Of a stretch of DNA of 34,563 nucleotides, positions 1,364 to 21,193 are shown piece by piece. Under the pieces are notes generated by a model. That model saw only the letters and a list, made by a program, of their open reading frames with translations, was not told the DNA's origin and searched no databases. The DNA is from Desulfuromonadales bacterium (lineage in GTDB: Bacteria > Desulfobacterota > Desulfuromonadia > Geobacterales > DSM-12255), in assembly GCA_009780995.1 (NCBI GenBank), contig WQYY01000004.1, forward strand, positions 1-34,563. The letters are read 5' to 3'. Both the position numbers and the translations under genes were made by a program. Position 1 is the first letter of the stretch, and the number at the start of each line of letters is the position of its first letter.

Positions 1364-1372
1364 ATTTTAATC

Positions 1373-3005: not shown

Positions 3006-3776
3006 ATGGCAGGCAGGTCTCTTACAAAAGAGGAACTCGAAAGATACTCCCGCCAGATTATGCTTAAGGAAGTCGGAGAGGAAGGGCAGCAAAAGCTTCT
3101 GAACAGCTCTGTTCTTGTTATAGGCGCCGGCGGTCTTGGTTCTCCTGTCCTACTCTATCTCGCAGCGGCAGGTATAGGAACTATAGGTATCGCTGATGGT
3201 GATGTGGTAAATATAAGCAATCTGCAGAGACAGATAATTCACTTCTCAGATGATGTTAATAAAAAGAAAGTCTTATCAGCAGAAGATAAAATCAGGCAGC
3301 TAAACCCAAACACAGTGGTAAAATGCTATCCTGAATATCTGGACAGCTCAAATATAAGAGACATCATATCGACCTACGACTTTGTCATAGACGCCACAGA
3401 TAATTTCAAAGCTAAATTCCTTATAAATGATGTTTGTATTGAACTGGGTATACCCTTTTCGCATGGCGGGATTCTGGAAACAAAGGGTCAGACCATGACA
3501 GTAATTCCGGATAAATCCCCATGCTACCGGTGTATTTTTCCTCATCCTCCATCTGATAATATTGCTAAAGCTTGTTCTTTCGGGGGCGTTATGGGAGTAT
3601 TGCCAGGTGTAATAGGCACTATCCAGGCTACTGAAGCCATAAAATTTATCCTTAACATAGGAAAACTCCTTACAGGGAGATTGCTTACATATGACCTTAT
3701 GGATATGCGATTCAGAGAAATCACTTTTGGCAAAAATCCACAATGCCCTGTTTGTGCGCGCTCTCCAAAGAGTTAG
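3006..3776 (+). CDS. moeB: HesA/MoeB/ThiF-family adenylyltransferase (E1-like)
   Basis: RYSRQIMLKEVGEEGQQKLLNSSVLVIGAGGLGSP, DNF, CYRC and CPVC zinc-binding cysteines; starts directly after the cysK stop. Confidence 0.9.
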   Translation: MAGRSLTKEELERYSRQIMLKEVGEEGQQKLLNSSVLVIGAGGLGSPVLLYLAAAGIGTIGIADGDVVNISNLQRQIIHFSDDVNKKKVLSAEDKIRQLNPNTVVKCYPEYLDSSNIRDIISTYDFVIDATDNFKAKFLINDVCIELGIPFSHGGILETKGQTMTVIPDKSPCYRCIFPHPPSDNIAKACSFGGVMGVLPGVIGTIQATEAIKFILNIGKLLTGRLLTYDLMDMRFREITFGKNPQCPVCARSPKS

Positions 3777-3787
3777 GCATAACATAT

Positions 3788-3893
3788 GGGGGCGACAGTC
3801 CCCGGTTGCCCGATAACACTGGCGCATAATGTGCGCCCCTACAAACGTCGAGAACCACCCCGCCCTTCGGGCACCCCTCCAAAGAGGGGACGC
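3788..3893. repeat. Composite palindromic repeat cluster downstream of moeB
   Basis: gggcgacagtccccggttgcccgataacactggcgcataatgtgcgcccctac + aaccaccccgcccttcgggcacccctccaaagagggg. Confidence 0.8.
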
Positions 3894-3947
3894 AACGCAG
3901 GAAATCCGCCATTTATCACAGATTTTTTAATCACACATATAAATGAT

Positions 3948-3983
3948 ATTTTATGCGCAATGTATTGACATCGCGCATAAAAT
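3948..3983. promoter_or_regulatory. TA promoter/operator: perfect 11-bp inverted repeat overlapping a -35 box
   Basis: ATTTTATGCGC-N14-GCGCATAAAAT with TTGACA at 3965-3970, upstream of the antitoxin start at 4034. Confidence 0.7.
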
Positions 3984-4033
3984 TATGTAATTATTTCATT
4001 GTTGGTTCAATATTTTTTTGGAGAGGTGTTGTT

Positions 4034-4312
4034 ATGTCAGAGACAACGAATTTAAACATACGGATTGATAAAGAGTTGAAGGAACAAGCCGAAAATTTTT
4101 TTAGCGAATTGGGATTGAATATGTCATCAGCGTTCAATATTTTCGTGCGCCAATCTTTAAGGCAAGGGAAAATTCCTTTTGAATTATCCATTGTGGCTGA
4201 CCCGTTTTATAGCCATGCGAATATGGCAGTTTTACGCAAGTCTATTAAAGAAGCAAACAAAGGGAAAGTCGTTACAAAAACACTCAAAGAACTGCGGGCG
4301 ATGGAAAAATGA
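4034..4312 (+). CDS. RelB/DinJ-family antitoxin
   Basis: MSETTNLNIRIDKELKEQAENFFSELGLNMSSAFNIFVRQSLRQGKIPFEL; typical DinJ RHH N-terminus; AGAGG upstream of ATG 4034. Confidence 0.88.
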   Translation: MSETTNLNIRIDKELKEQAENFFSELGLNMSSAFNIFVRQSLRQGKIPFELSIVADPFYSHANMAVLRKSIKEANKGKVVTKTLKELRAMEK

Positions 4313-4575
4313 ACATCAATTTTACAGAAACAGGTTGGGAAGATTATCTTTACTGGATAAGCCAAGATAAAAAGACCATTAAGCGTATAAATAATCTCAT
4401 TGAGGATATTGAGCGCAATGGACATGACGGTATCGGAAAATCCGAACCGTTACGAAACGATTTGTCCGGGTGGTGGTCCCGTCATATTGACGGTAAGAAC
4501 CGATTGGTCTATCGGCTTATTGGTGATGATGCTGTTGAAATTGCGCAGTGCAGAGGGCATTATAGTGATAAATAA
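4309..4575 (+). CDS. yoeB: Txe/YoeB-family mRNA interferase toxin
   Basis: FTETGWEDYLYWISQDKKTIKRINNLIEDIERNGHDGIGKSEPLRNDLSGWWSRHIDGKNRLVYRL...CRGHYSDK; ATGA overlap with the antitoxin. Confidence 0.92.
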   Translation: MNINFTETGWEDYLYWISQDKKTIKRINNLIEDIERNGHDGIGKSEPLRNDLSGWWSRHIDGKNRLVYRLIGDDAVEIAQCRGHYSDK

Positions 4576-4644
4576 ATTTAGCTAAAAAATTCGGGAGAAA
4601 ATTTACCCGTTGAGTTCAATATTTTTTCGTATTGTTTTAAGGTT

Positions 4645-4956
4645 TTATAAAAATTCTTCGGCATTACGCTTTTTGTAGAGGAACCTACGAACCTCCATTA
4701 TGCCGCCGATCACAACATACCATACAGTGAAGTTCCGGATTGAGATGCGGTAATATGGATAGGTGCGGTCTCTATTCGAATTGTATTTTTCAAATGATTC
4801 CGGTGCTTGCAATCGTTCCTGAATAGCCGCTTCTGTGTCCGCAATAAGACGGTATGCTGCATCGGGGTTTTTCAGTTTGAAGACAATATATTGCCATACC
4901 TCTGCAATATCCGAGTCAAACATGGGGAGATAGGAGAGCTTATACTTCTTTGCCAT
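4645..4956 (-). CDS. RelE/ParE-family toxin
   Basis: MAKKYKLSYLPMFDSDIAEVWQYIVFKLKNPDAAYRLIADTEAAIQERL...RRFLYKKRNAEEFL; shorter start (M at residue 47 of ORF 4645..5094) overlaps the antitoxin end. Confidence 0.83.
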   Translation of the reverse strand: MAKKYKLSYLPMFDSDIAEVWQYIVFKLKNPDAAYRLIADTEAAIQERLQAPESFEKYNSNRDRTYPYYRISIRNFTVWYVVIGGIMEVRRFLYKKRNAEEFL

Positions 4957-4960
4957 ACAG

Positions 4961-5209
4961 CTATCTCCTGTATTTTGCAAACACGTCTTCATGAGTGAGC
5001 CGCTCATCTGTGAGCGCTGCCATTTGATCCGCTTCGTCAAGTTTGAATTCGATGTTTCCAGTGAGTTCGGCATACTGGGCGAGGCTGAGGACAACCATTG
5101 CGCCGTACCCGTTTTTGGTTAGATATACAGGCACTCCGCTGTTCACAACGCTCTCAATGGCCGGAAAATTGTTTCGTAGTTCAGAAACCGGTTTAATTTG
5201 TATCATCAC
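4961..5209 (-). CDS. Phd/YefM-family antitoxin
   Basis: MMIQIKPVSELRNNFPAIESVVNSGVPVYLTKNGYGAMVVLSLAQYAEL; classic Phd/YefM pattern. Confidence 0.88.
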   Translation of the reverse strand: MMIQIKPVSELRNNFPAIESVVNSGVPVYLTKNGYGAMVVLSLAQYAELTGNIEFKLDEADQMAALTDERLTHEDVFAKYRR

Positions 5210-5226
5210 TACCTCCGTTCATGCTT

Positions 5227-5347
5227 TATCAGAATACTATCGGAATACTATCAGAATATTATCAAAATATCAAACTATGATGATGTATTTGAAAGCGTTT
5301 ATCTTGTCAAATGACAAGATAAATGACAAAATAAACGATAAGATAAG
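5227..5347. promoter_or_regulatory. Iteron-like upstream region of Phd/YefM operon: 4 x 11-bp repeats, 26-bp perfect palindrome, 3 x 12-bp repeats
   Basis: tatcagaatac/tatcggaatac/tatcagaatat/tatcaaaatat (5227-5270); tttatcttgtca-aa-tgacaagataaa (5298-5323); tgacaagataaa/tgacaaaataaa/cgataagataag (5312-5347). Confidence 0.75.
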
Positions 5348-5354
5348 AGTTATC

Positions 5355-5460
5355 CGAACCTAACCAAAGTACCATCTCGAGGGAACTAAAAGAATATCAA
5401 GTCGCCGGACTTCTTCGCCGTAAAGGTGCAAGAAAAAGAGGACAATGGGTAGTGGAATGA
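5355..5460 (+). pseudogene. C-terminal remnant of an HTH-containing protein
   Basis: In-frame SEPNQSTISRELKEYQVAGLLRRKGARKRGQWVVE*; no upstream ORF; resembles C-terminal wHTH of AlbA_2/ATP-binding proteins. Confidence 0.4.
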
Positions 5461-5462
5461 TG

Positions 5463-5555
5463 CTCACATATGACCTTATGGATATGCGATTTAGAGAAAT
5501 TACTTTTGGCAAAAACCCACAATGTCCTGTTTGTGCGCTCCAGCCAAAAAGTTAG
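5463..5555 (+). pseudogene. Truncated second copy of the moeB 3' end
   Basis: Encodes LTYDLMDMRFREITFGKNPQCPVCALQPKS*, matching LTYDLMDMRFREITFGKNPQCPVCARSPKS* at 3684-3776; five differences in the first 25 codons, all synonymous. Confidence 0.95.
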
Positions 5556-5599
5556 ACTAAAATTAAGACAATAAGAAATACTTCTCAATCGCTTGCCGC

Positions 5600-5865
5600 A
5601 AGCGATAAGCAATCAATTAAAACAAGCGATATGCTTATTATATATTAAAAAAATCTTCGAAGACGATGAGTTGCAGCCAGATTCAGTTATAAAGAAATAC
5701 TTTATAACTGCCCCAGACGGCAAATCTTACGGTACCAATCATTATAATCTACAGATGATAATTTCGGTGGGCTTCAAGGTCAATAATGACAATGCTGTCC
5801 ATTTCCGCAACTATTCGGAAATTCCGAATAGTTCAAACCGAGGGCAACCGACAAATCAACCGTGA
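5600..5865 (+). pseudogene. RhuM-family protein fragment
   Basis: IFEDDELQPDSVIKKYFITAPDGKSYGTNHYNLQMIISVGFKVNNDNAVHFRNY resembles the RhuM core; protein is short and lacks the rest of the family. Confidence 0.6.
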
Positions 5866-5964
5866 TACAATTAACCCCTACTCTTCACACTACAAACTCA
5901 AAAGGACATTATTGTATAATTATACAAATATACAATATCATTTTAACTGATTTCTCAACGAATT

Positions 5965-6005
5965 AAAACCTATTAGCTCAGGTAATACCTGAGCTAATAG
6001 GTTTT
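5965..6005. repeat. 41-bp perfect palindrome (20+1+20), copy 2 of the AGCTCAGGTA repeat family
   Basis: AAAACCTATTAGCTCAGGTA-A-TACCTGAGCTAATAGGTTTT. Confidence 0.9.
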
Positions 6006-6101
6006 AGTAGTATACATGGCAACATTCAAAAACTTGCCTAATTATATTATTACTCTGCTGCTCCTAGTTTGGAAACGAGGGATAATAGGAGACGTAAATT
6101 T

Positions 6102-6623
6102 TTATTGCTTCATAGCGCGAGCTATTTCTTCAGCTTGCTTTTTCATTTTATCATCATTAACTTGATTAACCTTATTCATTATGAACACACGAAAATTGTT
6201 AGGAGATGAGATTGTCCTAAATAAATAAGTGCCAGACGCAGTATCAACTTTAACTGTTCCGCAATTAAGCATTTTGTCTAAAAGACCAATTTTAAGCGAA
6301 ACGTTATTAATTTTATCAAGCGGTGATTCCATAATATCCGTACTGATAAAGCCGACTTTACCAAAAACTCTTTTGTTTGTGAGGCCTAATTCCGTAGTTA
6401 GTATTCTTATAATTTGTGGCAATAAAAGTAAAAGAGACATTATGAGAAGGAAATAAAAAGCACGATCTGAAATTTTATTAGCGGAACCAAAACGCGCATT
6501 TATCACTAAAAATAAAATAAAGACTACTATAACAGCATATGGAATCATTGTGCTCCAACTTACTTTTGCAGAATAAACAACATTTTCATCTTGTCCCAAA
6601 TTCGCCTGCAAATAATTTCCCAT
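6102..6623 (-). CDS. PH domain-containing (bPH2-type) membrane protein
   Basis: MGNYLQANLGQDENVVYSAKVSW... two hydrophobic helices, then ELGLTNKRVFGKVGFISTDIMESPLDKINNVSLKIGLLDKMLNCGTVKV, typical YdbS/bPH2 pattern. Confidence 0.85.
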   Translation of the reverse strand: MGNYLQANLGQDENVVYSAKVSWSTMIPYAVIVVFILFLVINARFGSANKISDRAFYFLLIMSLLLLLPQIIRILTTELGLTNKRVFGKVGFISTDIMESPLDKINNVSLKIGLLDKMLNCGTVKVDTASGTYLFRTISSPNNFRVFIMNKVNQVNDDKMKKQAEEIARAMKQ

Positions 6624-6747
6624 AGCTTGTACTCCATTATTTCTTATTTTTTTGAGCAAAATATATCGCATATGAGCTGCAAATACAACTCTTTTTACAA
6701 CTAATGTACTACACAAATGTATAGTAAAGTAGTTACAAAAAGGCGAT

Positions 6748-7080
6748 ATGACTATGGATATTTTACAGCAGATTACTAAGCTGCGTGAGGAGCGTAACTG
6801 GAGTGAATATAGGCTGGCGAAAGAGGCAAATCTTCCCCAATCGACACTCTTAAATCTCTCCAAACGATGTAATTCACCTACTGTGCCTACGCTTGAAGCA
6901 ATATGCGGTGCGTTTGGGATTTCCCTGTCGCAGTTTTTTGCACAGGCAGATGAAGGCGGTGACTTGACTGAAGAGCAAAAACAATTGCTTGATAACTGGA
7001 CATTATTGTCTAAAACACAGAAAAAAACTGTAATGGCATACATTTACGGACTTCTTCAAAAAAATCCACCAATAAAATAG
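6748..7080 (+). CDS. XRE-family helix-turn-helix transcriptional regulator
   Basis: LREERNWSEYRLAKEANLPQSTLLNLSKRCNSPTVPTLEAICGAFGISLSQFF. Confidence 0.9.
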   Translation: MTMDILQQITKLREERNWSEYRLAKEANLPQSTLLNLSKRCNSPTVPTLEAICGAFGISLSQFFAQADEGGDLTEEQKQLLDNWTLLSKTQKKTVMAYIYGLLQKNPPIK

Positions 7081-7366
7081 CGGTTATCTTTAAATTAATT
7101 CCTTCCCAATATTATTTTGTTCAATAATGAGTGAAGATTCTTGTAGTAGGGGCTTAGGCAATTTTTAAGCCTTAATTCTTGGATTCTTTTTTCTAATTCC
7201 TTTTCTTCACTTTTTGTATATCCACCAATGATGCTGAATTATCGGTAATTCTATAAGTTTGTATTATTCTTAAAATGGATATAAAAAACTTTTGTAGAGG
7301 TATTGATAATTTACATTAGGTACTTATATTGTTAAAGGTAATTCATAAACAAGAGAGGGGTATAAA

Positions 7367-7771
7367 ATGACAAATTTCGAAGACAAAAGTAAAAGACAGC
7401 AAGGTTTATGTGATAAAATCATACGGGCAGTCTTAGTCCAAGAAGACCTGCTAAATGAAGTTAGGAGCTTAAAAGAACCAATTAATAAATTAGTTGAAAT
7501 GGTAGATCGGCAGACAAAAACATCTATGCAAACTATGCAAAATGTGCAGACTGCGGGAAAACACAGCGAGAGCGCTATAATCATTGCCGCAGTGGCTATG
7601 GTACTTAATGTGCTCTTTTTTTCTTTATCAGCTATAACGTCGAAAGACCAGTTTATGAAGATGCGCCAAGTATCAAGTGAGCAAACCCAATATCTTAAAA
7701 AAATAAGTGAATCTTTAAAAAGCAAGCTGCCAATCACTCCAGTAGACACATCACAGAAAAAAGCGCAATAA
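7367..7771 (+). CDS. Hypothetical protein, coiled-coil-like with one central transmembrane segment
   Basis: ORF preceded by AGAGAGG; hydrophobic segment SAIIIAAVAMVLNVLFFSLSAI. Confidence 0.65.
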   Translation: MTNFEDKSKRQQGLCDKIIRAVLVQEDLLNEVRSLKEPINKLVEMVDRQTKTSMQTMQNVQTAGKHSESAIIIAAVAMVLNVLFFSLSAITSKDQFMKMRQVSSEQTQYLKKISESLKSKLPITPVDTSQKKAQ

Positions 7772-7780
7772 TAAAAAGAT

Positions 7781-7858
7781 ATGACGGAAGCGGCTATTGT
7801 TGCGGCTTTGATGGAGCAGTATCAAAAGTTACAAAAAAATGATGCATCAAAGGAGTAA
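7781..7858 (+). CDS. Possible 25-aa small ORF between the TM protein and DUF2971 protein
   Basis: ATG..TAA encoding MTEAAIVAALMEQYQKLQKNDASKE; its end carries the AAGGAG preceding ATG 7866. Confidence 0.3.
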   Translation: MTEAAIVAALMEQYQKLQKNDASKE

Positions 7859-7865
7859 AGTATCC

Positions 7866-9260
7866 ATGTATCGTATTCGACCTTTAGATTATATTTTAGG
7901 AGAAGAATATCAAGAATTAGAAAAGCAACAAATCTATTTTACTCCTTTTGATGAACTAAATGACCCTCTCGAAGGTACTATTGATATGTTTTGGCAAGGA
8001 GATTTAATCGTTTGGGAGAATTTTTTATGCCATTATTTGTTATGTTTATGTAATAAATTTTTGAGAGCAACATTTTCTAATAATGCAAATGATTTTCTCA
8101 AAGAAAAAGAAATTCATGTACAAATGACAGTTAACAATTTGCCCGAACGGTATGGAGAGGTTTTTAAACAAATAAAAAAACATTTTCTTTCAAAACAAGA
8201 GATTATTGTTTTATTAGATTATCTTTCAAATAAACAAATACCGACACGGAGAAATGAACTATTATTTTATTTACAATCAATTAATTTAATCGCCTTACAT
8301 AGCATAATTTCTGTGCATAGAGAAAATAAGCTTTGCCAAGGTTCAAATTTTTTGTCTCTCTTACAAGAGGAAGAAAGCAGTTTAGTAGCAAACATAACAA
8401 CTTTGAAGGAAGCAAATAGTGAAGAAAATACCAAAGAGCTATTCAGGCACTTTAATCTTCTGTATAAGCAATCAGCTTTGTTGCAATATTACAACTTTAG
8501 AACCGAAAAATTCGACAAAAAGTTAGCTTACCTGTTGATCAATTTCCCTGAAGATTTCTCAATGCAAATAGATGAACTTGTTTACTCAAAGTGGTATTTA
8601 GCCTGTTTTATGAATTCATGCCCTAATGCCTCTCTATGGGGAAGTTACGGTGTAAACCATACAGGAGTATGTTTGAAGTTTAAGACATATAACAACGACA
8701 ACAAAATCTACTTACCGATTGAGATGCCTGTCGGATTTGGTTCAAATGGATTGATGATAGAACCAAGTGAAATGTTTTTTGATAAAGTTGAATATGGGAA
8801 TGATAGAATCCAAGTAGATTTTTTTCGTTCTATACTTACACTCCCGACACCAGTATTACACGAAGAATGGTATACAGATGATGCAGGGCTTAAAAGTATT
8901 TGTTCAGATGTTTTAGAAGACAAAGAAAAACGACGAAAATATTGGGATAATCAAAAAAGAATCTCAACATCAAAAACACTTGATTGGAAAGAGGAAAATG
9001 AATATCGTCTAATATTAACTCCATTACTTGATGAATTTTCAAATAAAGAAGATAGAGTTCTTAAATACAACTTTAATGATTTAGATGGGATAATTTTCGG
9101 AATGAGAACTCCTATTGAAGATAAAGTAAAGATTTTGGCAATCTTAGACAAGAAATGCCAAGAGCATAAAAGAGATGATTTTAAAATATATCAAGCTGAT
9201 TATGATTTTGGAAAGAAAGAGATGATAATTGATGAGTTAGAGTTGATTAAACCGAAATAA
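7866..9260 (+). CDS. DUF2971 family protein
   Basis: MYRIRPLDYILGEEYQELEKQQIYFTPFDELNDPLEG, SLWGSYGVNHTGVCLKF, LDGIIFGMRTPIEDKVKI; start 7866 preferred over 7839 because of AAGGAG spacing. Confidence 0.78.
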   Translation: MYRIRPLDYILGEEYQELEKQQIYFTPFDELNDPLEGTIDMFWQGDLIVWENFLCHYLLCLCNKFLRATFSNNANDFLKEKEIHVQMTVNNLPERYGEVFKQIKKHFLSKQEIIVLLDYLSNKQIPTRRNELLFYLQSINLIALHSIISVHRENKLCQGSNFLSLLQEEESSLVANITTLKEANSEENTKELFRHFNLLYKQSALLQYYNFRTEKFDKKLAYLLINFPEDFSMQIDELVYSKWYLACFMNSCPNASLWGSYGVNHTGVCLKFKTYNNDNKIYLPIEMPVGFGSNGLMIEPSEMFFDKVEYGNDRIQVDFFRSILTLPTPVLHEEWYTDDAGLKSICSDVLEDKEKRRKYWDNQKRISTSKTLDWKEENEYRLILTPLLDEFSNKEDRVLKYNFNDLDGIIFGMRTPIEDKVKILAILDKKCQEHKRDDFKIYQADYDFGKKEMIIDELELIKPK

Positions 9261-9310
9261 AGTCATTTGCTTTTTATCCCCATTGTTTTCCTAGCTCCCA
9301 GTAAATAATA

Positions 9311-9348
9311 AACTTGCCTAATTCTCTTGTTACTTACAGTATTAGGCA
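9311..9348. repeat. TTGCCTAAT-N-ATTAGGCAA hairpin repeat
   Basis: cttgcctaattctcttgttacttacagtattaggcaa; related hairpin at 1322-1358. Confidence 0.65.
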
Positions 9349-9475
9349 ATAAATATACTAAGGCAATCAGGGCAGCGCCCTATCTCCCCTTAATCAAGAC
9401 CCTTTATAATTTTACTCTCTTCCAGCCCCAAATTTTACCTAATCACGATATTATGATAAAATTCCAAATGAAGAT

Positions 9476-9571
9476 TTAACAGGGAGTTTTTACATGCCCA
9501 AAGAAAACCGTTCCGAATTTGCCATAACAGGTATGCACTGCGCAGCCTGCACCCACGCCCGAAAGCTATAG
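9476..9571 (+). pseudogene. Truncated second copy of the copA RBS and first 19 codons (ends in early TAG)
   Basis: ATG 9494: [25 protein letters not shown]; first 19 codons match copA with five synonymous differences and none nonsynonymous. Confidence 0.95.
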
Positions 9572-9731
9572 GGTAGTAAGTGGAGTTATTGTTTCTGTCG
9601 ATTGTATCTACACTTAATCATAGTGTCCTCGGCATAAAACAATAATTACAGTCTTGAAACCCTAAAAAGCACTTTACATTGTATGCCCGTTGGGTGCATA
9701 ATGGGATATAAAGATTTGGGGGTGTTTTGTT

Positions 9732-10043
9732 ATGACCGAAGCAAGGCTCAATGTCCGTGTAGATAATACTACAAAAAAACAAGCTGAGGCAGTATTTACC
9801 GCACTCGGAATGAATATGAGTACGGGAATAAACATTTTCTTGGCGCAAGTGGCGCGTTCGAGAGCAATCCCATTCGTACTCGAATTAAACGGCGACCCGA
9901 TTGAGCGTCGTATGAGAGAAGCGGTAAACGCGAAGATTTCCGCTATAAAATCATCCGGATTACCCGTCGCATTATACGATGACTTACAAAATCGCCCTTT
10001 CCTTGAATATCCCGATGGCAGGAGAATTTACGACATTGATTGA
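9732..10043 (+). CDS. RelB/DinJ-like antitoxin
   Basis: MTEARLNVRVDNTTKKQAEAVFTALGMNMSTGINIFLAQVARSRAIPFVLELNGDP; DinJ-like N-terminus. Confidence 0.82.
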   Translation: MTEARLNVRVDNTTKKQAEAVFTALGMNMSTGINIFLAQVARSRAIPFVLELNGDPIERRMREAVNAKISAIKSSGLPVALYDDLQNRPFLEYPDGRRIYDID

Positions 10044-10590
10044 TGTTCCGAAAATCATTGTCTTTGCGGGGCCTAATGGTTCCGGCAAAAGTACCGTGAC
10101 ACAGGCTTGGGAAAAAGTCGGATTGTACATCAACGCCGATGACATCAAGACAATGCGCGAGTGTTCCGACCTCGGAGCCGCGCAGGAAGCAGAGCGTTTG
10201 CGTGAGTTATGTTTTTCGGAACGACGCTCTTTCACGTTCGAGACCGTTCTCTCAACAGAACGAAATCTTGACTTGATTTCCCGCGCCAAATCCGCCGGGT
10301 TTTACGTTGAAAGCGTATTTGTTTTGACGGCAAACCCGGAGTTGAATGTGTTTCGTGTAAAGAGCCGTGAATTATCGGGCGGCCACAGTGTCCCGCCCGA
10401 CAAAATCCGCAGCCGGTATACAAAATCTCTCGCTAATATTTCAAAGCTGTTGACGTTGAGTGATGTATTCCTGCTTATTGATAATACCGCCCAACCAGAA
10501 ATCCTTTTCATCAAAGATGAAGCAGGGCAACAAATACGCCCCAACCGCTATTGGACGGTCGAGGTTATAGAGAAGCTGACAGCGGTTTAA
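10015..10590 (+). CDS. Zeta toxin-family P-loop kinase
   Basis: IIVFAGPNGSGKSTVTQAWEKVGLYINADDI...FTFETVLSTERNLDLISRAKSAGFYVESVFVLTANPELNVFRVKSRELSGGHSVPPDKIRSRYTKSLANI; start could be 9979 or 10015 (both overlap the antitoxin). Confidence 0.87.
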   Translation: MAGEFTTLIDVPKIIVFAGPNGSGKSTVTQAWEKVGLYINADDIKTMRECSDLGAAQEAERLRELCFSERRSFTFETVLSTERNLDLISRAKSAGFYVESVFVLTANPELNVFRVKSRELSGGHSVPPDKIRSRYTKSLANISKLLTLSDVFLLIDNTAQPEILFIKDEAGQQIRPNRYWTVEVIEKLTAV

Positions 10591-10641
10591 TCGACGCAAA
10601 ACGAAAATCATGACCCAATAATTAACATGGAGTTCATTTAC

Positions 10642-12894
10642 ATGCCCAAAGAAAACCGCTCTGAATTTGCCATTACAGGTATGCATTGCGCGGCCTGCGC
10701 CAACCGCATTGAAAAAGAGTTGGCAAATGCTGAAGGGGTGGGTTCTGCAAATGTGAATTTCGCTACCTCAAGAGCAACGGTTATTTTTAATCCCGATTTG
10801 ACCAGTTATAAGAAGCTGGGCGCCCTAATACGTTCTATCGGGTATGATTATATAGAAACAGAAGACGGCGCTGATTCCACGCAGGAAGCTGAAACCCTTC
10901 TGCATGAAAAGGAGTATAAAGAGAGCAAAAAAAGATTTTTGATTTCACTTGTACTAACTCTCCCTGTAGCTTTTCTCTCTATGACAGGGCATATTTACAG
11001 GCCTCTTGAAGATATCCTGAATTTCCCGGGCCGCTCTGTTATTGAGCTCTTACTGACAACTGTCGTCCTTTTCTGGTGCGGCAGCCAGTTTTTCACAGGA
11101 GCGATAACTGCCGCTAAACATAGAGCTGCCGATATGAACACTCTTGTGGCTATCGGAACTTTTTCAGCCTATATTTTCAGCCTGGTTGCAATGATATTTC
11201 CGAAATTTTTCATAACAACCGGCCATTCTTCAGCGCTCTACTTTGAAGCGTCGGCAATGATAATAACCCTTATTCTAATGGGGCGCTTTCTTGAGGCAAG
11301 GGCAAGGCAGAAAACGTCAACCGCCATACGTTCCCTTATGGAGCTTCAGCCTAAAACAGCCCATGTTGAAAAGGACGGTACAGAACAGGATATTGCCATA
11401 ACGGAGCTCCGTATTGGGGATATCATTATTGTTAAACCCGGAGAAAAGATACCTGTGGACGGAGAGGTTATAAGCGGAACTTCATCAGTTGATGAAAGTA
11501 TGATAACAGGTGAATCTGTTCCTGTGTCAAAATCAACAGGAGCCGCCGTTATTGGAGCAACCATAAACCAAACAGGCTCTTTAAAAATGAGAGCCACAAA
11601 AGTAGGGAAAGATACCCTTCTCCAACAGATCATAAAAATGGTTAAGGAAGCGCAGGGAAGCAAAGCGCCTATACAAAAAGGGGCAGACATAATCGCCAGC
11701 TATTTCGTACCTGTTGTTATCTGCATAGCAATAGCTGCTTTTGTGATATGGTTTGCCATATCTTCCCATGAAACCCGTATCAGTATGGCTCTGACAACTT
11801 TCATCTCTGTTCTTATAGTAGCATGCCCATGCGCTCTGGGGCTCGCAACCCCCACAGCTATTATGGTCGGTACAGGAAAGGGAGCTGAAAATGGGATTCT
11901 GATAAAAAGCGGCGAAGCTCTTGAAATTGCCCATAAGGTAACTACGGTTGTCATGGATAAGACCGGCACAATAACAACAGGTAAACCGTCAGTTACAGAT
12001 ATTTTACCTCATAACATGGACGAAAAACAGCTTCTCCGGCTGGTCGCATCACTAGAGTCCAAGAGTGAGCACCCTCTGGCTGTTGCTATATTAAGCAAGG
12101 GCAAAGAGCTGAATATTGAAGTACTCCCCGTAGAAAATTTTGAGGCTACACCAGGTTTTGGGATTAAAGGAATTGTAACAGGCAAAAGCATGATAGCAGG
12201 AACTGCTCTTATGTTACAAAGAGAGGGAGTAAATTTTGAGGATATTGATACAGAAGCCCTTCATAAACAGGGGAAAACCCTGGTTTTTATAGCTGTTGAC
12301 GGAGAATTTGCAGGGACAATAGCCATTGCTGATACTATAAAAAAAGGGACTAAAAAAGCGCTGGAAAGGCTTGAGAATATCGGGCTTGAAACCATAATGC
12401 TTACAGGAGACAACAGGCTTACCGCAAATGAAATAGCGAGAGAGGCCGGCATAAAGAATGTAATGGCAGAGCTTTTGCCGGGAGACAAAAATGAAGTTAT
12501 AAAGAGACTTCAAAAAGAAGGAAAAATTGTCGCGATGGTTGGGGATGGAATAAATGATGCCCCTTCCCTCGCCCAGGCAAATGTGGGAATAGCAATGGGA
12601 AACGGAACAGATATTGCTATGGAAGCCGCTGATATAACACTTGTAAGAGGAAACCTTGATGGTGTGGCAGCCAGCATAGACCTCTCAAGGGCAACTATCA
12701 AAAATATAAAAGAAAACCTTTTTTTCGCGTTTTTTTATAACATACTTGGAATACCTATTGCGGCAGGTATTCTGTATCCTTTTACAGGCTGGTTACTTAA
12801 TCCGGTGATTGCTTCTCTTGCAATGGCGCTTTCATCTGTCAGCGTTGTCACAAACGCGCTGCGCCTCCGCAATTTGAGACTGGGAATGGAATAA
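10642..12894 (+). CDS. copA: Copper-type heavy-metal-translocating P-type ATPase
   Basis: [18 protein letters not shown] domain, [47 protein letters not shown]; start 10642 (GGAG 9 nt upstream) preferred over 10627 because the fragment at 9494 begins there too. Confidence 0.95.
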
Positions 12895-12904
12895 CCGGAC
12901 TTTT

Positions 12905-12964
12905 GTAGGGGCGACCGTCCCCGGTCGCCCGTATTATCGGGACACCGAGGACGGTGTCCCCTAC
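12905..12964. repeat. GTAGGGGCG two-hairpin palindromic element
   Basis: gtaggggcgaccgtccccggtcgcccgtattatcgggacaccgaggacggtgtcccctac. Confidence 0.85.
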
Positions 12965-12983
12965 ATTCTATGCCTCGCAAGTC

Positions 12984-13070
12984 GCTCCTCGGCTGCTGTC
13001 ATTGCGGACTCGATCCGCAATCCCCTGCTATTTGGAGATTGCGGGGCAAGCCCGCAATGACGTCCTGTGT
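12984..13070 (-). repeat. ~87-bp hairpin repeat, inverted copy A
   Basis: Reverse complement nearly identical to 16476-16563 (acacagg(g)acgtcattgc..ggcttg..cccgcaatctccaaatag.aggggattgcggatcgagtccgcaatgac.gcagcc.aggagc). Confidence 0.9.
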
Positions 13071-13146
13071 TAATTAGGTAAAATATATTATGGTATTCTT
13101 TTGGCAATTCAAAAAAATGATAATAGATTTGAAAAAAGATTTGACA

Positions 13147-13668
13147 ATGGTATTAAGGCATAGTTATATAAAAGCGATTATTGCCACTTCAATGATGATT
13201 TTTCTGACAAGCTGTGTCTTGCCTAAACAAGTTGACTTAGGCGTTTATGACGCCACAGTCCCGATAGAGCAACAATCTACTTTAATAATCGACGGAACGT
13301 TAAAAGTAACCGGTTTTGACAATAGAAAGGTGGAATGGTATCCGGGTTATTTCAAATACGGGAACGACACTTCTTCTTCCATAATTCAGATTCCGGCAGG
13401 AAAACATACTTTTTTAATGGATTACTTAAATAATTGCGCAGTTAAGTGCCCAACATGTGGCATCATGATTATTACATCACATGGAGGTGTTTCAAACTCA
13501 TGTGTCAGTGCTGAAAAGTCTGATATTAGTATTACACGAGATTTTGAGGCAGGAAAGATATATCGGATCAAGCCATCTGCAACACCACTACAAGAAGGCC
13601 CCACAAAAAATTATAACTTTTTGATAAACATCAATGTTACAGAGGAGAAATTGAAGGGAAAACAATAA
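13147..13668 (+). CDS. Hypothetical lipoprotein
   Basis: Signal with lipobox IFLTSC; start may be 13090 or 13147; no family recognised. Confidence 0.6.
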   Translation: MVLRHSYIKAIIATSMMIFLTSCVLPKQVDLGVYDATVPIEQQSTLIIDGTLKVTGFDNRKVEWYPGYFKYGNDTSSSIIQIPAGKHTFLMDYLNNCAVKCPTCGIMIITSHGGVSNSCVSAEKSDISITRDFEAGKIYRIKPSATPLQEGPTKNYNFLININVTEEKLKGKQ

Positions 13669-13853
13669 AACCCTGTATAACTAAAAACATATGCTATCCT
13701 TTCATTTGATTAACAATCCAATTCGACCAACCATTTATAATAAGCTGGGATTCTAAAATTAACTAATAATAATTCTATGATATACAAATCACATAAACTT
13801 TACCAACCACTGAATTCTATATTTAGTAATTCTATTAATTGTATGGAGCTTAA

Positions 13854-15101
13854 ATGAATTTAAAAGAACTTAAAGGGAAAAAAATCAGCGAACTTAATGC
13901 TATTGCGAAAGAGCTGAAGCTTGAAGGCGCATCAGGTATGCGGAAGCAGGATCTTATATTTGCTATACTGAACGCGCAAACTGAGCAAAATGGAATGATA
14001 TTTGGCGAAGGGGTACTTGAAACCCTTCCTGATGGATTCGGTTTTCTCCGTGCGACAGATTATAACTACCTTCCGGGGCCTGATGATATTTATGTTTCTC
14101 CCAGCCAGATTCGCAGATTCAATCTCCATACAGGGGACACTGTCTCCGGTCAGATACGCCCCCCCAAAGAGGGAGAGAGGTATTTCGCCCTTCTTAAGGT
14201 TGAAGCCGTAAATTTCGAATCACCTGAAACTGCAAGGGATAAAATCTTCTTTGATAACTTAACCCCGTTATACCCTGATGAAAAACTGAATCTGGAGACA
14301 GAGCCTGATAATATGGCCATGCGGGTTATGGAGCTTACATCGCCTATCGGCAAGGGGCAGCGGGGGCTCATAGTTGCGCCGCCACGTACAGGTAAGACAA
14401 TGCTGCTGCAAAACATTGCTAACTCCATAGCGGCAAATCACCCTGAAGTTTACCTTATCGTCCTTCTCATTGATGAAAGACCTGAAGAAGTTACAGACAT
14501 GGAGCGCTCTGTAGACGGAGAAGTTATATCTTCTACATTTGATGAACCAGCAACCCGGCACGTACAAGTAGCCGAAATGGTTATAGAAAAGGCAAAACGA
14601 CTTGTGGAACACAAGCGGGACGTTGTTATTCTTTTGGACTCCATTACGCGCCTTGCAAGGGCTTATAACACAGTAATCCCCCCATCAGGAAAAATCCTCT
14701 CAGGCGGTGTTGATTCAAATGCACTTCATAAACCAAAACGGTTTTTCGGAGCTGCCCGTAATATCGAAGGGGGAGGCTCATTGACAATAATCGCGACAGC
14801 TCTTATTGATACCGGCAGCAAAATGGACGAGGTTATTTTTGAAGAGTTCAAAGGAACAGGCAACATGGAGCTTCATCTTGACCGCAAACTGGTTGAAAAA
14901 CGGACATTCCCGGCAATTGATATTAATAAATCAGGAACCAGAAAAGAAGAATTATTGGTGGAAAAAACTGCCCTTAACCGCATCTGGATTCTCAGAAAAA
15001 TTCTGCACCCAATGAATGTGGTGGATAGTATGGAATTCTTACTGGATAAACTATCAGAAGCAAAAACAAATCAGGAGTTTCTTGACTCAATGCACAAATA
15101 A
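13854..15101 (+). CDS. rho: Transcription termination factor Rho
   Basis: [77 protein letters not shown]. Confidence 0.98.
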
Positions 15102-15201
15102 TTTCCTTGAAAAAATTAAGAGATAGTGTTAATTTTTCTACCCCGCTAAAAACAATTTACAGATAATTTTCGAAATGAATTAAATATAGGAGGAGCTACA
15201 A

Positions 15202-15399
15202 ATGAAAGAAGGAATTCACCCTGAGTATGTTGATGTTACTGTTAAGTGCCTATGTGGAAATACTTTCCAGACACGTTCAACAAAACCAGAAATAAATACT
15301 GAAATATGTTCTGCATGTCACCCTTTCTTTACCGGAAAGCAGAAGCTTATTGACACCGCAGGGAGAGTTGAGCGGTTTAAAAAACGTTACGGCATTTAG
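15202..15399 (+). CDS. rpmE: 50S ribosomal protein L31 (zinc-cysteine type)
   Basis: [63 protein letters not shown]. Confidence 0.97.
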
Positions 15400-15424
15400 C
15401 TACATTCCAGCTTTTATACAATGT

Positions 15425-15464
15425 AAGGGGATTTTGTCGATATACAGGCAAAATCCCCTTTGTA
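15425..15464 (+). terminator. Hairpin terminator candidate after rpmE
   Basis: Perfect 12-bp stem aaggggattttg / caaaatcccctt with 12-nt loop; only a weak T tract follows. Confidence 0.55.
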
Positions 15465-15475
15465 TATTCTACGTA

Positions 15476-15603
15476 ATATGACTTCGGCTTTTGAACCATA
15501 GGACAGGCGTCCTGCGTAGGGGGCGTCGAGGACGCCGACCCCTACGATCAAAGGATACGCTACGCAGCCAACACAGTCAGATGCAAAAAGCGGAAGCCGT
15601 ATT
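15476..15603. repeat. MITE-like composite repeat with inverted termini
   Basis: Left atatgacttcggcttttg, right gcaaaaagcggaagccgtatt (inverted similarity), enclosing gtagggggcgtcgaggacgccgacccctac. Confidence 0.7.
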
Positions 15604-15615
15604 TTGAGAGGACTT

Positions 15616-16314
15616 ATGAACGTTACAGTTACACTTTTACAGCATACGCCCAATCCTGAGAAAACAGTGGCCTTAGCAGCAAAACTTTGTTACTCGTCAA
15701 CTTCCATAGGCCAGTTAAATAACAGGTTGTCAGAGAAGGACATAGCTTCATTTTTAGAAAAAATAATGTCTCTCGGGCACCAGTCGGTTCTTGAGCATAT
15801 ATCTTTCACATTTGGGATTGAAGGTATATCAAGGGCATGTTCTCACCAATTGGTAAGACACAGAATTGCGTCATTTTCTCAGCAATCACAGCGTTATGTA
15901 ACATTTAAAAATAATGACTTTCCGTTTATAATTCCTGAAAGCATAGAAAATAATAACAAAAGAAAAAAAATATTCTGTAAAGCTATTGAAGCCTGTTCTG
16001 CGGCGTATGCCGCCCTTATAGATGACGGAGTGCCTGCTGAAGACGCCCGTTTTATACTTCCAAACGCTGCTGAAACAAAAATTATCGTTACTATGAATGG
16101 TAGAGAGCTCCTACACTTTTTTGCTCTCAGATGTTGCGAACGGGCACAATGGGAAATACGGGAAATGGCAATTGAAATGCTTAAACTTGTAAAACCTGTA
16201 GCTCCACTGATTTTTAAAACAGCCGGCCCGGGATGCATTGATGGAGCATGTCCTGAAGGAAGTATGAGTTGCGGAAAGGCAAAGAAGATAAGAAAACGAT
16301 TCGAAAGTTTATAA
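15616..16314 (+). CDS. thyX: FAD-dependent thymidylate synthase ThyX
   Basis: ThyX motif RHRIASFSQQSQRY; GHQSVLEHISFTF; ATG 15616 with GAGAGGA upstream. Confidence 0.95.
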   Translation: MNVTVTLLQHTPNPEKTVALAAKLCYSSTSIGQLNNRLSEKDIASFLEKIMSLGHQSVLEHISFTFGIEGISRACSHQLVRHRIASFSQQSQRYVTFKNNDFPFIIPESIENNNKRKKIFCKAIEACSAAYAALIDDGVPAEDARFILPNAAETKIIVTMNGRELLHFFALRCCERAQWEIREMAIEMLKLVKPVAPLIFKTAGPGCIDGACPEGSMSCGKAKKIRKRFESL

Positions 16315-16317
16315 ACT

Positions 16318-16695
16318 CCAGTGTGGAGTGTGGCAATCCAGAGGTTTTTGTAGGGGCGCACAGCGTCCGCCAGAACCACCCCACCCGACCGGCACCCCTC
16401 CATAGAGGGGAATTAAAATCAAAACCTGTAAACCCAGGATACACCTGATCTTATAGGTTTTTAATAAGCATAATGACACAGGGACGTCATTGCAGGCTTG
16501 ACCCGCAATCTCCAAATAGTAGGGGATTGCGGATCGAGTCCGCAATGACGGCAGCCAAGGAGCAGGGCGTGGGGCGTGGCAGCGCCACGTTGAACGTCCT
16601 GGCAATGTAGGGGCGGCAACCTGCTGCCCGCGTTGTCGAACGCAAAAAGTGCGCCCCTACAGTCGCCGTATATGGCCAAAAGCCTGCGTCATATA
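16318..16695. repeat. Nested composite repeat cluster between thyX and DUF1385 gene
   Basis: Contains GTAGGGGCG modules (16348-16369, 16607-16660), CACCCC module (16373-16414), the ~87-bp hairpin (16476-16563) and terminal tatggccaaaagcctgcgtcatata. Confidence 0.8.
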
Positions 16696-16729
16696 ATAGA
16701 TGAAGCCGAAATCATAAAGAGAGATACTT

Positions 16730-17641
16730 ATGGATAAAATAAACATAGGCGGCCAAGCAGTCCTCGAAGGCGTCATGATGCGGGCACCCCGCTCCATAGC
16801 CATCGCTGTGAGGCGGCCAACAGGTGAAATAGTTGTAAAAAAAGAAGAGCTGATACCTATATCAGAGAGGTTTCCTATCACAAAACTTCCTGTTGTGCGA
16901 GGGGCAGTGGCTCTTTTTCAATCCCTTATTATAGGTATGAAAGCCCTTAACTTTTCAGCTAATGAAGCTATGGCAGAAGAAGGGCAGGAAGAGAAAAAAG
17001 AGTTATCTTCATGGGCAATGGCCGGAACAATAATCTTTGCCCTGGCTTTCGGGATTCTCCTCTTTTTTATAATGCCTTTATACCTTACAAAGCTGATATC
17101 ACCAGCCATAGGGAACTCCAACATACTGTTCAACCTTGTAGATGGAGCTATAAGAGTAGTTGTATTCCTGCTCTATATCTGGATAATATCCAGAATGAAC
17201 GATATACAGAGAGTATTTCAGTACCATGGGGCTGAACATAAGTCTATATTCACGTTTGAAGCGGGAGAAGAGCTTACTGTCGAAAATGTAAGAAAACATA
17301 GCTGCCTTCACCCCCGTTGCGGAACCAGTTTTCTCCTTATTGTAATGGTGGTAAGTATTGTCATGTTCTCGCTAATTCCAAAAGCATGGCCATTTTATCT
17401 CAAAGCAGGTTCACGGATCCTTTTTCTCCCGCTTATTGCCGGAGTCTCATACGAATTTTTAAAATGGAGCGCTAAACACGATAAATCGGCTATTGTAAAA
17501 ATGATAATAGCGCCGGGCCTAGCCTTGCAAAGACTTACAACAAAAGAACCTGACGACAGCCAACTTGAAGTTGCCATAAAGTCCATTGAAGAAGCCCTGG
17601 AGATAAATGGCAGTTACAGCGATGATAGGCTTGTGATTTAA
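16730..17641 (+). CDS. DUF1385 family membrane protein
   Basis: INIGGQAVLEGVMMRAPRSIAIAVRRP; QYHGAEHKSIFTFEAGEELTVENVRKHSCLHPRCGTSFLL. Confidence 0.93.
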   Translation: MDKINIGGQAVLEGVMMRAPRSIAIAVRRPTGEIVVKKEELIPISERFPITKLPVVRGAVALFQSLIIGMKALNFSANEAMAEEGQEEKKELSSWAMAGTIIFALAFGILLFFIMPLYLTKLISPAIGNSNILFNLVDGAIRVVVFLLYIWIISRMNDIQRVFQYHGAEHKSIFTFEAGEELTVENVRKHSCLHPRCGTSFLLIVMVVSIVMFSLIPKAWPFYLKAGSRILFLPLIAGVSYEFLKWSAKHDKSAIVKMIIAPGLALQRLTTKEPDDSQLEVAIKSIEEALEINGSYSDDRLVI

Positions 17642-17680
17642 ATTTATCCTAAGAGAAACCGAGTTTAAGGAATAATATAG

Positions 17681-18751
17681 ATGTTCGAAAAAATTGAAGA
17701 ACTTGAAAATCGTTTTCAGGAGCTGGAAGCCTTACTTTCTGACCCTTCCATAATCGCCAACCAGCCTGAATTCAGAAAACTCTCCAGAGAACATTCTGAT
17801 TTAACATCCATTGTTAATGCTTATCGTACATATAAAAAAGTTCTGGAAGATATTGAGGGGAATAAAGAACTTCTTACAGACCCTGAGATGAAAGAGATGG
17901 CTCAGGAAGAGCTGGAAACTCTTGAAACCCAAAAAGAGTCGTTGGAAGAAGAGATACAGCTTCTTCTCCTTCCAAAAGACCCAAACGACAGCAGGAATGT
18001 TATTCTTGAAATCCGGGCAGGTACCGGCGGAGATGAATCCGGCCTCTTTGCAGGAGATTTGTTCAGAATGTACACCCGCTTTGCGGAAAAAAACCGGTGG
18101 AAAGTAGATATGCTCTCCTGCTCTGAATCTGAGCGTGGGGGATATAAAGAGGTAGTCGCGTCTATTGAGGGAGAAGATGTCTATGCAAAGCTAAAGTACG
18201 AATCTGGAACCCACCGCGTACAGCGCGTCCCGGAAACTGAAGCCCAGGGGAGAATACATACCAGTGCCTGCACAGTAGCAATCCTTCCTGAAGCGGAAGA
18301 TATTGATATTGAAATTAACCCTGCTGATCTGAAAATTGATGTTTACCGCTCGTCAGGAGCCGGTGGGCAGCATGTCAACACAACAGATTCGGCTGTTCGT
18401 ATAACACATATCCCGACAGGGACTGTTGTAGCCTGCCAGGAAGAGCGAAGCCAGATAAAAAACCGCGCAAAAGCAATGAAAGTATTAAAAACCAGAATTC
18501 TGGACAGCATAACTCAGGAACAGAACGCAAAGCTGGCTGCTAACAGGAAGAACCAGGTAGGAAGCGGAGATAGAAGTGAGCGAATTCGCACTTATAACTT
18601 CCCCCAGGGTAGAATGACAGACCACCGTATTGGCCTCACACTTTATAAACTGGACGCCATTATGGAGGGCGAAATAGGTGAAATTACAAACGCATTAAGA
18701 GCCCATTATCAAATGGAAGCCCTTAAAGAACAGGCAGGGAACAACGGCTAG
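17681..18751 (+). CDS. prfA: Peptide chain release factor 1
   Basis: [38 protein letters not shown] (GGQ). Confidence 0.97.
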
Positions 18752-18752
18752 A

Positions 18753-19619
18753 ATGAGCGTAGGAGAAGAAACCTGGACAACCCTAAAAGTCCTTAACTGG
18801 ACAAAAGAGTACCTTGCTGAAAAGGGTATTGAAAACTCCCGCCTTGAAGCGGAATGGCTCCTTGCTTCAGCTCTGAATCTGGACAGAATCGGCCTTTACC
18901 TTAACTTTGACAAACCACTTAGTGAAAAAGAACTTGCCACATACCGCAATATGGTTTCAAGACGGGCTAAGCGTGAACCTTTGCAGTATATTATGGAAAC
19001 TCAGGAATTTTACGGGCTGGAATTTAACGTATCTCCCGCCGTCCTTATCCCAAGACACGATACTGAAATCCTGGTATCGGAAACCTTGAAAAGAGCTGCA
19101 CCTGAAAGCCGGATTCTCGATATAGGGACAGGAAGCGGTTGCATTGCCATAACACTGGCCTCAAATCTTCCTGAAGCTGAAATATATGGAGTGGATTTAT
19201 CTTCAAACGCCATTTTAACGGCAAAACAGAATGCTAAACAACATGATGTTCATGTAACTTTTCTGGAAGGGTCTCTTTTTGAACCAATAAAAGAGCTAAG
19301 TTTTGATATTATTGTAAGTAACCCTCCATATATACCATCAGAAGAAATAAACTCTTTACAGCCCGAAGTTAAGGATTATGAACCCCAAAACGCTCTTGAT
19401 GGAGGGGTTGACGGGCTTGAATTCTACAGACTTATTATAAAAGAAGCCCATCAGCATATGGAAAAGGACGGCTGGCTACTTTTTGAAACAGGTATAAACC
19501 AGGCAGATTCAGTTGTTGCAATGCTGGAAAAAAATAACTTCAAAAAAATAGAGATAATCAAAGATCTTTCTGGTATAGAAAGAGTAGTTTGTGGTTGTTT
19601 AATTCAGTGTGGAGAGTGA
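18753..19619 (+). CDS. prmC: Release factor glutamine methyltransferase
   Basis: LDIGTGSGCIAITLAS, VSNPPYIPSEE (NPPY), follows prfA. Confidence 0.95.
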   Translation: MSVGEETWTTLKVLNWTKEYLAEKGIENSRLEAEWLLASALNLDRIGLYLNFDKPLSEKELATYRNMVSRRAKREPLQYIMETQEFYGLEFNVSPAVLIPRHDTEILVSETLKRAAPESRILDIGTGSGCIAITLASNLPEAEIYGVDLSSNAILTAKQNAKQHDVHVTFLEGSLFEPIKELSFDIIVSNPPYIPSEEINSLQPEVKDYEPQNALDGGVDGLEFYRLIIKEAHQHMEKDGWLLFETGINQADSVVAMLEKNNFKKIEIIKDLSGIERVVCGCLIQCGE

Positions 19620-19925
19620 AGAGTGGCAATCCAAAGGTTTTGTAAGGGTGGCAATCTGACACCCGATATATACGCCGTAGGCGTTGAATATCAATAGAAA
19701 AAGAAATATATGAATTTTTTGTCCGTAGAACATTAATTGTTAAAGCCCTACGGGCTATCTGTTGGTTATATGCGATTTTTCTATTGATATGAATGCCCTA
19801 AGGGCAATGTAGGGGCGCACAGTGTGCGCTCGACAATACGGGCGGCAGGTTGCTGCCCCTACGCAAGCAAAACACGATAAAGGCAACGCAGTTGGGCGCA
19901 AAAAGCCGAAGCCATCTAAAATAAG
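19605..19925. repeat. Composite repeat cluster between prmC and murA including a 15-bp-TIR element
   Basis: cagtgtggagagtgaagagtggcaatccaaagg (cf. 16319), atatcaataga... / ...tctattgatat inverted pair (19689-19788), GTAGGGGCG element 19809-19862, gcaaaaagccgaagccat. Confidence 0.75.
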
Positions 19926-19939
19926 AGGTAAAGAAAACA

Positions 19940-21193
19940 TTGGATAAACTTATAATAAAAGGCGGCAAAAAATTAACCGGCGAAGTCTCCATAAGCGGAT
20001 CAAAAAATGCTGCTTTACCCATATTTATCTCCACACTTCTGGCGCCTGGCCTCCACGAAATAAGCAATGTCCCTTTTCTACGTGATATAAACACAACAAT
20101 AAAAGTTCTGGAATCCCTTGGAGGAGCAGTCCAGGGAAATGGTAATATCGTATCTATTGATACATCAAATATTAACAGCGTTGAAGCCACATATGAACTT
20201 GTAAAGACCATGCGGGCATCAGTTCTTGTCCTTGGCCCTCTTTTGGCGAGATATGGAAGAGCGAGAGTCTCTCTGCCCGGCGGATGCGCTATAGGGGCAA
20301 GACCTATTGATCAGCATCTAAAAGGACTTAAAGCTCTTGGGGCAGAAATAAACTTATCCCACGGTTATGTAGAAGCCACCGCAAAAAGCCTCAAAGGAGC
20401 AAGAGTAAATTTTGATATGCCGACTGTCGGCGGCACAGAGCATATTATGATGACCGCTACCCTTGCAAAAGGGGACACTATCATTGAAAATGCCGCAAGA
20501 GAGCCTGAAATAACCGATCTGGCAATGATGCTAATTGCGATGGGAGCAAAAATAGAAGGAGCCGGCAGTGACACGATCAAGATAACCGGTGTAAAACAGT
20601 TATCCCCGGTAAATTACCGAGTAATGCCCGACAGGATCGAAGCAGGTACATTTATGATAGCTGCGGCAATAACCGGCGGAGATGTAAAAATTAAGAATAT
20701 GCAGCTTGGGGATATTGATGCGTTAATCTTTAAGCTTCTTGATACCGGAGTTGAAATAACCAATAAAAACGGCGTTGTAAAGGTTAAGGGGCCGAAACGC
20801 CTGAAAAGTGTTAATATAAAAACCAGACCATATCCCGGTTTCCCTACTGATATGCAGGCACAATTTATGGCTCTTATGTCTGTTGCGGACGGAGCCAGTG
20901 TAATAGCAGAAAATATCTTTGAAAATCGTTTTATGCATGTTTCGGAACTTATGCGTTTTGGAGCGGATATAACCATTGACGGTAGAAGTGCTACAGTAAA
21001 GGGAGTAAAGAAGCTCTCAGGCGCTCCTGTTATGGCAACAGACCTCAGAGCATCAGCTTCCCTGATCCTTGCAGGCCTTGCCGCTGACAATACAACCGAA
21101 ATATCCAGGATATATCATCTTGATAGAGGTTATGAATCTATTGAGAAAAAGCTTGCGGCTCTTGGCGCAGATATCCAACGGGTGAAGGAATGA
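19940..21193 (+). CDS. murA: UDP-N-acetylglucosamine 1-carboxyvinyltransferase (TTG start)
   Basis: [28 protein letters not shown]; catalytic-loop [16 protein letters not shown]. Confidence 0.97.

Follow-up and report, generated by a model that had tools for sequence, protein, structure and literature searches.

GTAG-tagged REP dimers of a Desulfuromonadales bacterium carry stem words that look like specificity tags read by a helix of their cognate RAYTs

The double hairpins scattered between the genes of this Desulfuromonadales bacterium belong to a known kind of element: they consist of REP units with a GTAG tag, most of which are arranged head-to-head in twos (REPIN/BIME). The variable words in their stems look like specificity tags read by the cognate RAYT transposases, since the same word is found in matched copies inside RAYT genes and is associated with residues of a predicted DNA-binding helix of the enzyme. 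The whole explanation, in which GTAG REP dimers are accompanied by RAYTs that carry their own word twice in frame and would read it with one face of helix αC, is in our judgement highly probable.

The window, the whole stretch of 34,563 nucleotides that was analysed, contains the named dimer, five other dimers and five single forms; the basic unit is GTAG and GGGCG, a variable word, a loop, the complementary word and CGCCC. The head-to-head dimer at 12905-12964 reads in full GTAGGGGCGACCGTCCCCGGTCGCCC-GTATTATC-GGGACACCGAGGACGGTGTCCCCTAC; its sequence resolves into a left unit GTAG-GGGCGACCG-TCCC-CGGTCGCCC, the spacer GTATTATC and, on the minus strand, a right unit GTAG-GGGACACCG-TCCT-CGGTGTCCC, and two hairpins are predicted on both strands (fold z about -6.1 and -5.5). 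The other dimers, like the first listed without strand, are the heterodimers at 1111-1164 (words CAC and GCA, spacer GACAACAC, from sequence and fold), 16607-16660 (GCA and a degenerate CAC, spacer GCGTTGTC), 19809-19862 (CAC and GCA, spacer GACAATAC) and 31339-31392 (CAC and ACT, spacer GTGTTATC), together with the dimer at 3788-3842, in which a degenerate left unit that has lost its GTAG is joined through the spacer GATAACAC to a right unit with a degenerate CAC-like word. The single forms comprise a GCA unit at 1470-1493 (plus strand), a degenerate CAC unit at 16350-16373 (plus strand) followed by a ACCACCCC...GGGGAATT repeat, a CAC unit at 25010-25033 (plus strand) that represents one half of a GATAACAC-type dimer and adjoins a ACCACCCC-type repeat, a CAC unit at 32141-32165 (minus strand) also joined to a ACCACCCC-type repeat, and a 'double foot' REP at 15516-15545 (no strand assigned), in which one hairpin is flanked by GTAG on one side and by CTAC on the other; such forms have been suggested to derive from dimers that lost their central part (PMC6006769). 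The original prediction had located all of these correctly apart from the half element at 16350-16373, which it did not list, and its description fits except that the left unit of 3788-3842 is without GTAG and 15516-15545 has GTAG at both ends. It had also placed the elements between genes, where they indeed lie, several of them directly 3' of stop codons, save for one that runs into the end of an ORF whose start is uncertain.

Two other repeats accompany these elements. Head-to-head palindromes tagged with CGTC (CGTCATTGCGGGCTTGACCCGCAATC type), with 15 strict copies in the genome and belonging to the second REP superfamily of PMC3733652, lie beside the GTAG REPs at 12998-13061 and 16485-16550. 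At 16350-16420, 25010-25066 and about 32100-32165 a third repeat, ACCACCCCGCCCTTCGGGCACCCCTCCATAGAGGGGAATT, takes the place of the dimer partner next to CAC units, and in L008:15793-15884 it is found inside a dimer spacer.

Throughout the 1.72 Mb genome GTAGGGGCG occurs at 341 sites (174 + 167), against 2 (1 + 1) for the reversed-pattern control. Hairpins directly after GTAG, counted in 0.75 Mb of the genome, number 157, compared with 4-21 after nine other tetranucleotides. The elements therefore have the two properties of the GTAG REP superfamily, a GTAG immediately 5' of a short palindrome and many copies located mainly between genes. Adjacent units are head-to-head in 73 cases, tail-tail in 9 and in tandem in 13, and this excess of inverted pairs over the 22 others, with conserved spacers, is that of REPINs or BIMEs. 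Dimers fall into subfamilies: a 54-bp class has the spacer GATAACAC with CAC, ACC or ACT at the left and GCA or ATC at the right, in a 56-bp class GGCCATTGGCC is found opposite AATGCCC..., GCA homodimers make up most of a 69-bp class, and CGATTTATCG units form homodimers with longer spacing. The claim that the two halves usually differ is correct for 44 of the 46 short-spacer pairs, yet random pairing would give about 40, and short-spacer homodimers number 2 against 5.9 expected. As to the proposed modular recombination of halves, it is right in part, but the dimers are subfamilies with spacers of their own, and free shuffling in its strong form was rejected because the words to the left and to the right of the GATAACAC spacer come from different sets. 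Relatives of the same order that bear REPs retain the foot and differ in words and loops. In five of them (G003, G013, G016, G019 and G021) GTAGGGGCG...CGCCC is kept with hairpins of the form NNN-GGC-NNN, and in their dimers words ending in C are often found with words ending in T (AAC/TAT, CAT/AAC, GAC/CAT).

Pairing within the stem was scored at three variable base pairs, in sites picked by GTAGGGGCG alone and irrespective of pairing. In this genome 150 of 171 sites had all three complementary, as had 121 of 130 sites inside RAYT genes, whereas only 14-17% were fully paired when the 3' arms were shuffled, in agreement with the idea that the words change while keeping their complementarity. 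About fifteen word families of many copies each make up the stem variation within this genome, and the independent evidence for pairing therefore comes from homologues. Among 56 distinct 23-mer units taken from inside RAYT genes, 99.3% of cells were paired, the pairing collapsed with slid partners, and a formal covariation count gave 96 double-sided changes against 23 in shuffles, which supports the selection on the fold originally proposed.

Transposases of the RAYT or Y1 type had been suggested as a lead, and the genome does encode them. Y1 transposase genes (PF01797 matches) are present, and a search with one of them, L125, as query gave further full, damaged or relic RAYT copies. Their REP units lie inside the reading frame, head-to-head at a distance of about 180 bp, the two sharing one stem word: CAC in L125 and L126, AAC in L127 and the relic L136, GCA in L128 and the relic L137, and a CGCGACACCC stem in L129, while the divergent RAYT L133 has CGAT units. 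Hence CAC and GCA, the commonest intergenic words, and AAC have a RAYT; no intact RAYT was found for the ATC, ACCG and AATGCCC word families in this 82%-complete assembly. The divergent RAYT (L133:1450-2189) is of 225 aa, has an unusual insert between HUH and the helix, and its gene and flanks hold four CGATTTATCG copies. The HUH motif residues H83 and H85 are invariant and the catalytic tyrosine, Y144, is near-invariant among homologues, and the best PDB match to the fold is 4ER8, TnpAREP bound to a REP hairpin, so that the proteins are Y1 HUH nucleases with the fold of that RAYT. The best NCBIfam family, NF047646, scores 56-66 bits (E 1e-15 to 4e-18), below its curated cut-off of 80 bits, and the RAYT assignment accordingly relies on the fold, the motifs and the link with REPs. 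By their scores, the RAYTs that have REPs in the gene go with REP_Tyr_transpos and not with transpos_IS200; a separate IS200-type gene without REPs (L002) is also present. REPs in frame inside the transposase gene are a property of RAYT group 4 (subclass 2.4), and a 2018 report (PMC6006769) describes them for subclass 2.4 genes, so their existence as such is not new.

The correspondence between the two in-gene units extends far beyond this genome. Among 79 homologues from named genomes (mostly Clostridia, and also termite-gut Proteobacteria, Synergistaceae, Spirochaetes and Dehalococcoidales), 60 have both units, and 48 of these carry the same word at both sites, against 5.9 expected and a maximum of 15 in 5000 shuffles; the 12 discordant genes have words mostly one base pair apart. 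Hairpin loops also agree between the sites (33/59 vs 7.6), and both sites had the same word in 17 of 19 new genes. On a RAYT tree built without the REP-coding residues, words changed 32 and 35 times at the two sites, 22 times on the same branch (11.6 expected, maximum 19), and on 18 branches both sites changed to the same word. Thus, the explanation that would have spoken against selection, duplication of a few sequences, is partly true inside this genome and false across the RAYT homologues. The word of the gene is also enriched in units outside it at the same loci (38/147 vs 7.1 expected), including those more than 300 bp away (23/127 vs 4.8 expected). In the complete genome of Chakrabartyella piscis about ten RAYT genes have different stems that are matched within each gene (p = 1e-4); these genes (L138-L148), with hairpin pairs in frame that are sometimes quite different, offer a natural panel for specificity. 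Near-alike RAYTs with identical words were seen in gut MAGs assigned to several phyla (L055, L056, L070, L081, L097, L104, L111 and L118), which suggests that RAYT and word are often transferred together horizontally, or else MAG contamination.

The two conserved in-gene sites correspond to surface loops, β1-αA and β3-αC, which in the structure model cover residues 41-50 and 91-101 with a mean pLDDT of about 60-65, compared with >90 for most of the core, and the peptides encoded by the tags vary widely although the frame is fixed. To call the words interchangeable, as had been done, is misleading, because each word is common to an intergenic family and to the RAYT that carries it twice in frame.

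Template-switch correction of quasi-palindromes would turn the pairing and the identity of the in-gene copies into products of mutation bias rather than of selection. Near-perfect pairing and concerted change could arise in this way in two inverted copies about 180 nt apart, and the single-base-pair differences of most discordant genes would fit, but neither the match with units outside the gene nor the association with helix residues is accounted for, and we regard it as unlikely to be the explanation. Such correction may be a source of new words.

The reading of words as specificity tags draws on helix αC, whose residues are numbered here as in the L125 protein. The pattern was first noticed when this helix was listed by word, and the hypothesis was fixed before new genes were fetched. 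Pairs of proteins with the same word were compared with other pairs of matched relatedness outside the helix (0.486 vs 0.483 in the combined set). The same-word pairs agree more at residues 108 (+0.59), 112 (+0.56), 115 (+0.38) and 105 (+0.23), weakly more at 110 (+0.15) and 116 (+0.11), and show no excess at residues 106, 107, 109, 113, 114 and 117. With this helical periodicity, the word-associated residues 108, 112, 115 and 116, with 105, form one face of αC. At positions 108-112-115-116 the word GAT is typically accompanied by G-R-S-K, GCA by G/N-R-S-M/I/V/L, CAC by K-E/G-T-K, AAC by K-G-T-K, ACC by Q-G-S/T-K, CGC by N-G-T-K and GCC by N-G-S-K. Of the RAYTs of this genome, L125 (CAC) has K108, E112, T115 and K116, and L128 (GCA) has G108, R112, S115 and I116. 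Individual residues go with individual bases: the third base of the word is A or T with R112 (29/29), C with G112 (39/40) and A with a hydrophobic residue 116 (11/11), and the second is A with K108 (22/26). The words are therefore misdescribed as interchangeable in a second sense, as each follows the residues of the predicted DNA-binding helix of its RAYT.

Prediction was evaluated on a small set of 24 non-redundant genes unused before, taking the word from the nearest training helix. The helix neighbour gave the right word in 53% of them; shuffled words gave 11% (maximum 29%), and a neighbour chosen by the rest of the protein 19%. A simpler rule, by which residue 112 alone would give the first base of the word, was rejected: it was right in 13 of 22 new genes (shuffled 8.0, maximum 16), held for R (R to G, 7/8) and failed for G, which is ambiguous at 112. 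The code therefore appears to be combinatorial. Among relatives of this genome, helix and word stay together from one family to another, as do GYFKYQ[TS]TK and GGG or GAFKTVSTK and GGTTCG. Residue 112 aligns with K82 of E. coli TnpAREP, which contacts the REP base C27 in the crystal structure (PMC8266576), and this correspondence supports a direct reading of the word by the helix, as far as an alignment may tell.

It could be argued that these are ordinary REP/BIME families only, whose words mark old subfamilies, and that the link between word and RAYT residues reflects shared ancestry. Known GTAG families do have alternative complementary stems and heterodimers (PMC3733652), and the word and protein phylogenies correlate somewhat (simple Mantel 0.23). 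Ancestry would not, however, limit the association to one helix face at equal overall identity, and GCA occurs in at least four separate clades, mostly with G/N-R-S/A plus a hydrophobic residue. Over the 161 genes with any unit, stem similarity follows the helix when the core is given (partial Mantel 0.46, permuted maximum 0.09) and is almost independent of the core when the helix is given (0.06). We consider this interpretation improbable. Co-transfer of DNA, in which recombination would move the second in-gene REP together with the adjacent helix DNA and produce a correlation without recognition, starts from the facts that this REP ends about 10 nt before the helix codons and that REPs, being repeats, could recombine. 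But codons for shared helix residues are no more alike in same-word genes than in others (0.37 vs 0.40), so that co-transfer fails to explain the link between helix and word; the intervening helix residues are free of association, and the residue profile is the same if only the words of the first site, which lies about 180 nt upstream, are used. Cassette exchange of the segment between the in-gene REPs was likewise discarded, as the slightly greater similarity of same-word pairs is found in both the inner and the C-terminal part, and co-transfer is very unlikely. Equally hard to credit is that selection acts on the RNA folds of the elements, as transcription terminators or regulatory hairpins, a view that their intergenic location, their stable hairpins and the position of several just 3' of stop codons might favour, but which explains neither the strand-specific GTAG tag nor the RAYT link and found no support in a terminator scan of positions 1-20000, where no terminator-like site coincided with an element and no T run lay 3', or in Rfam, where no family matched the window above the gathering threshold; a secondary terminator or RNA role may exist.

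Tags and helix together suggest the following scheme for the preferred reading, that of words recognised by their RAYTs. The REP units are non-autonomous, and the RAYT (TnpAREP, HUH/Y1) is thought to process them in the form of folded single strands. The hairpin of this branch combines an invariant foot (GTAG plus GGGCG/CGCCC) with a variable 3-bp word, each RAYT gene has its own word twice in frame at the two surface loops, and copies of the word are dispersed between genes. The most likely readers of the word are αC residues 108, 112, 115, 116 and 105, and a new word would then persist only if the helix changes too. From these associations we infer that the helix contacts the word, that cleavage specificity depends on it and that the elements are cut, copied and mobilised by the cognate RAYT; the in-gene tags, by our guess, would keep the enzyme and its cognate sites together. 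That this amounts to a code of group-4 RAYTs, in which about four residues on one face of αC would recognise a word of 3 bp in a hairpin folded from a single strand, with the word stored twice in the gene, so that enzyme and address co-diversify and the enzyme could be re-addressed, seems to us rather probable.

Comparison with known systems points to an element of known kind, GTAG REP dimers with group-4-like RAYTs, and to a recognition code between helix and word that is apparently undescribed before; no earlier report of word matching inside RAYTs or of such a code was found in the literature searched, which mostly excludes subscription journals. The GTAG REP families of Di Nocera et al. 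2013 (PMC3733652) share the GTAG tag, the perfect short stem, the head-to-head heterodimers, the alternative complementary stem residues and the presence of several families per genome, but their stem variants are treated as sequence types and no tie to RAYT residues is reported. The tnpAREP subclass 2.4, or RAYT group 4, of Quentin et al. 2018 (PMC6006769) has the same REP foot of three G-C pairs, in-frame REPs and 'double foot' REPs; there the in-gene REPs are given as variable insertions generally located between HuH and Y, whereas the present RAYTs have two conserved sites that share one word, and units outside the gene match this word too. E. coli TnpAREP (4ER8; PMC8266576) shares the fold and has a helix contacting the stem, with K82 equivalent by alignment to code residue 112, but recognition there occurs via GTAG and a bulge and no stem-word code is described. 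In a SELEX study of three REPtrons (PMC8266576) group-3 enzymes differ in recognising loop bases, and for the S. maltophilia and Marinomonas RAYTs, of another group than the present enzymes, the loop mattered more than the stem. In the Pseudomonas fluorescens REPINs (Bertels and Rainey 2011, PMC3116915), which belong with another RAYT group, the repeated unit likewise consists of two inverted REPs.

To the question of how a RAYT finds its own REP family, natural variation gives a readable answer that names residues and base pairs and yields concrete predictions in many genomes. Should binding assays bear it out, sequence would suffice to assign REP families to their enzymes, changes of word could be traced as events, and a change of a few residues would re-address a small hairpin-recognising HUH nuclease. 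The in-gene tags would also document, within the gene itself, which word its transposase recognised.
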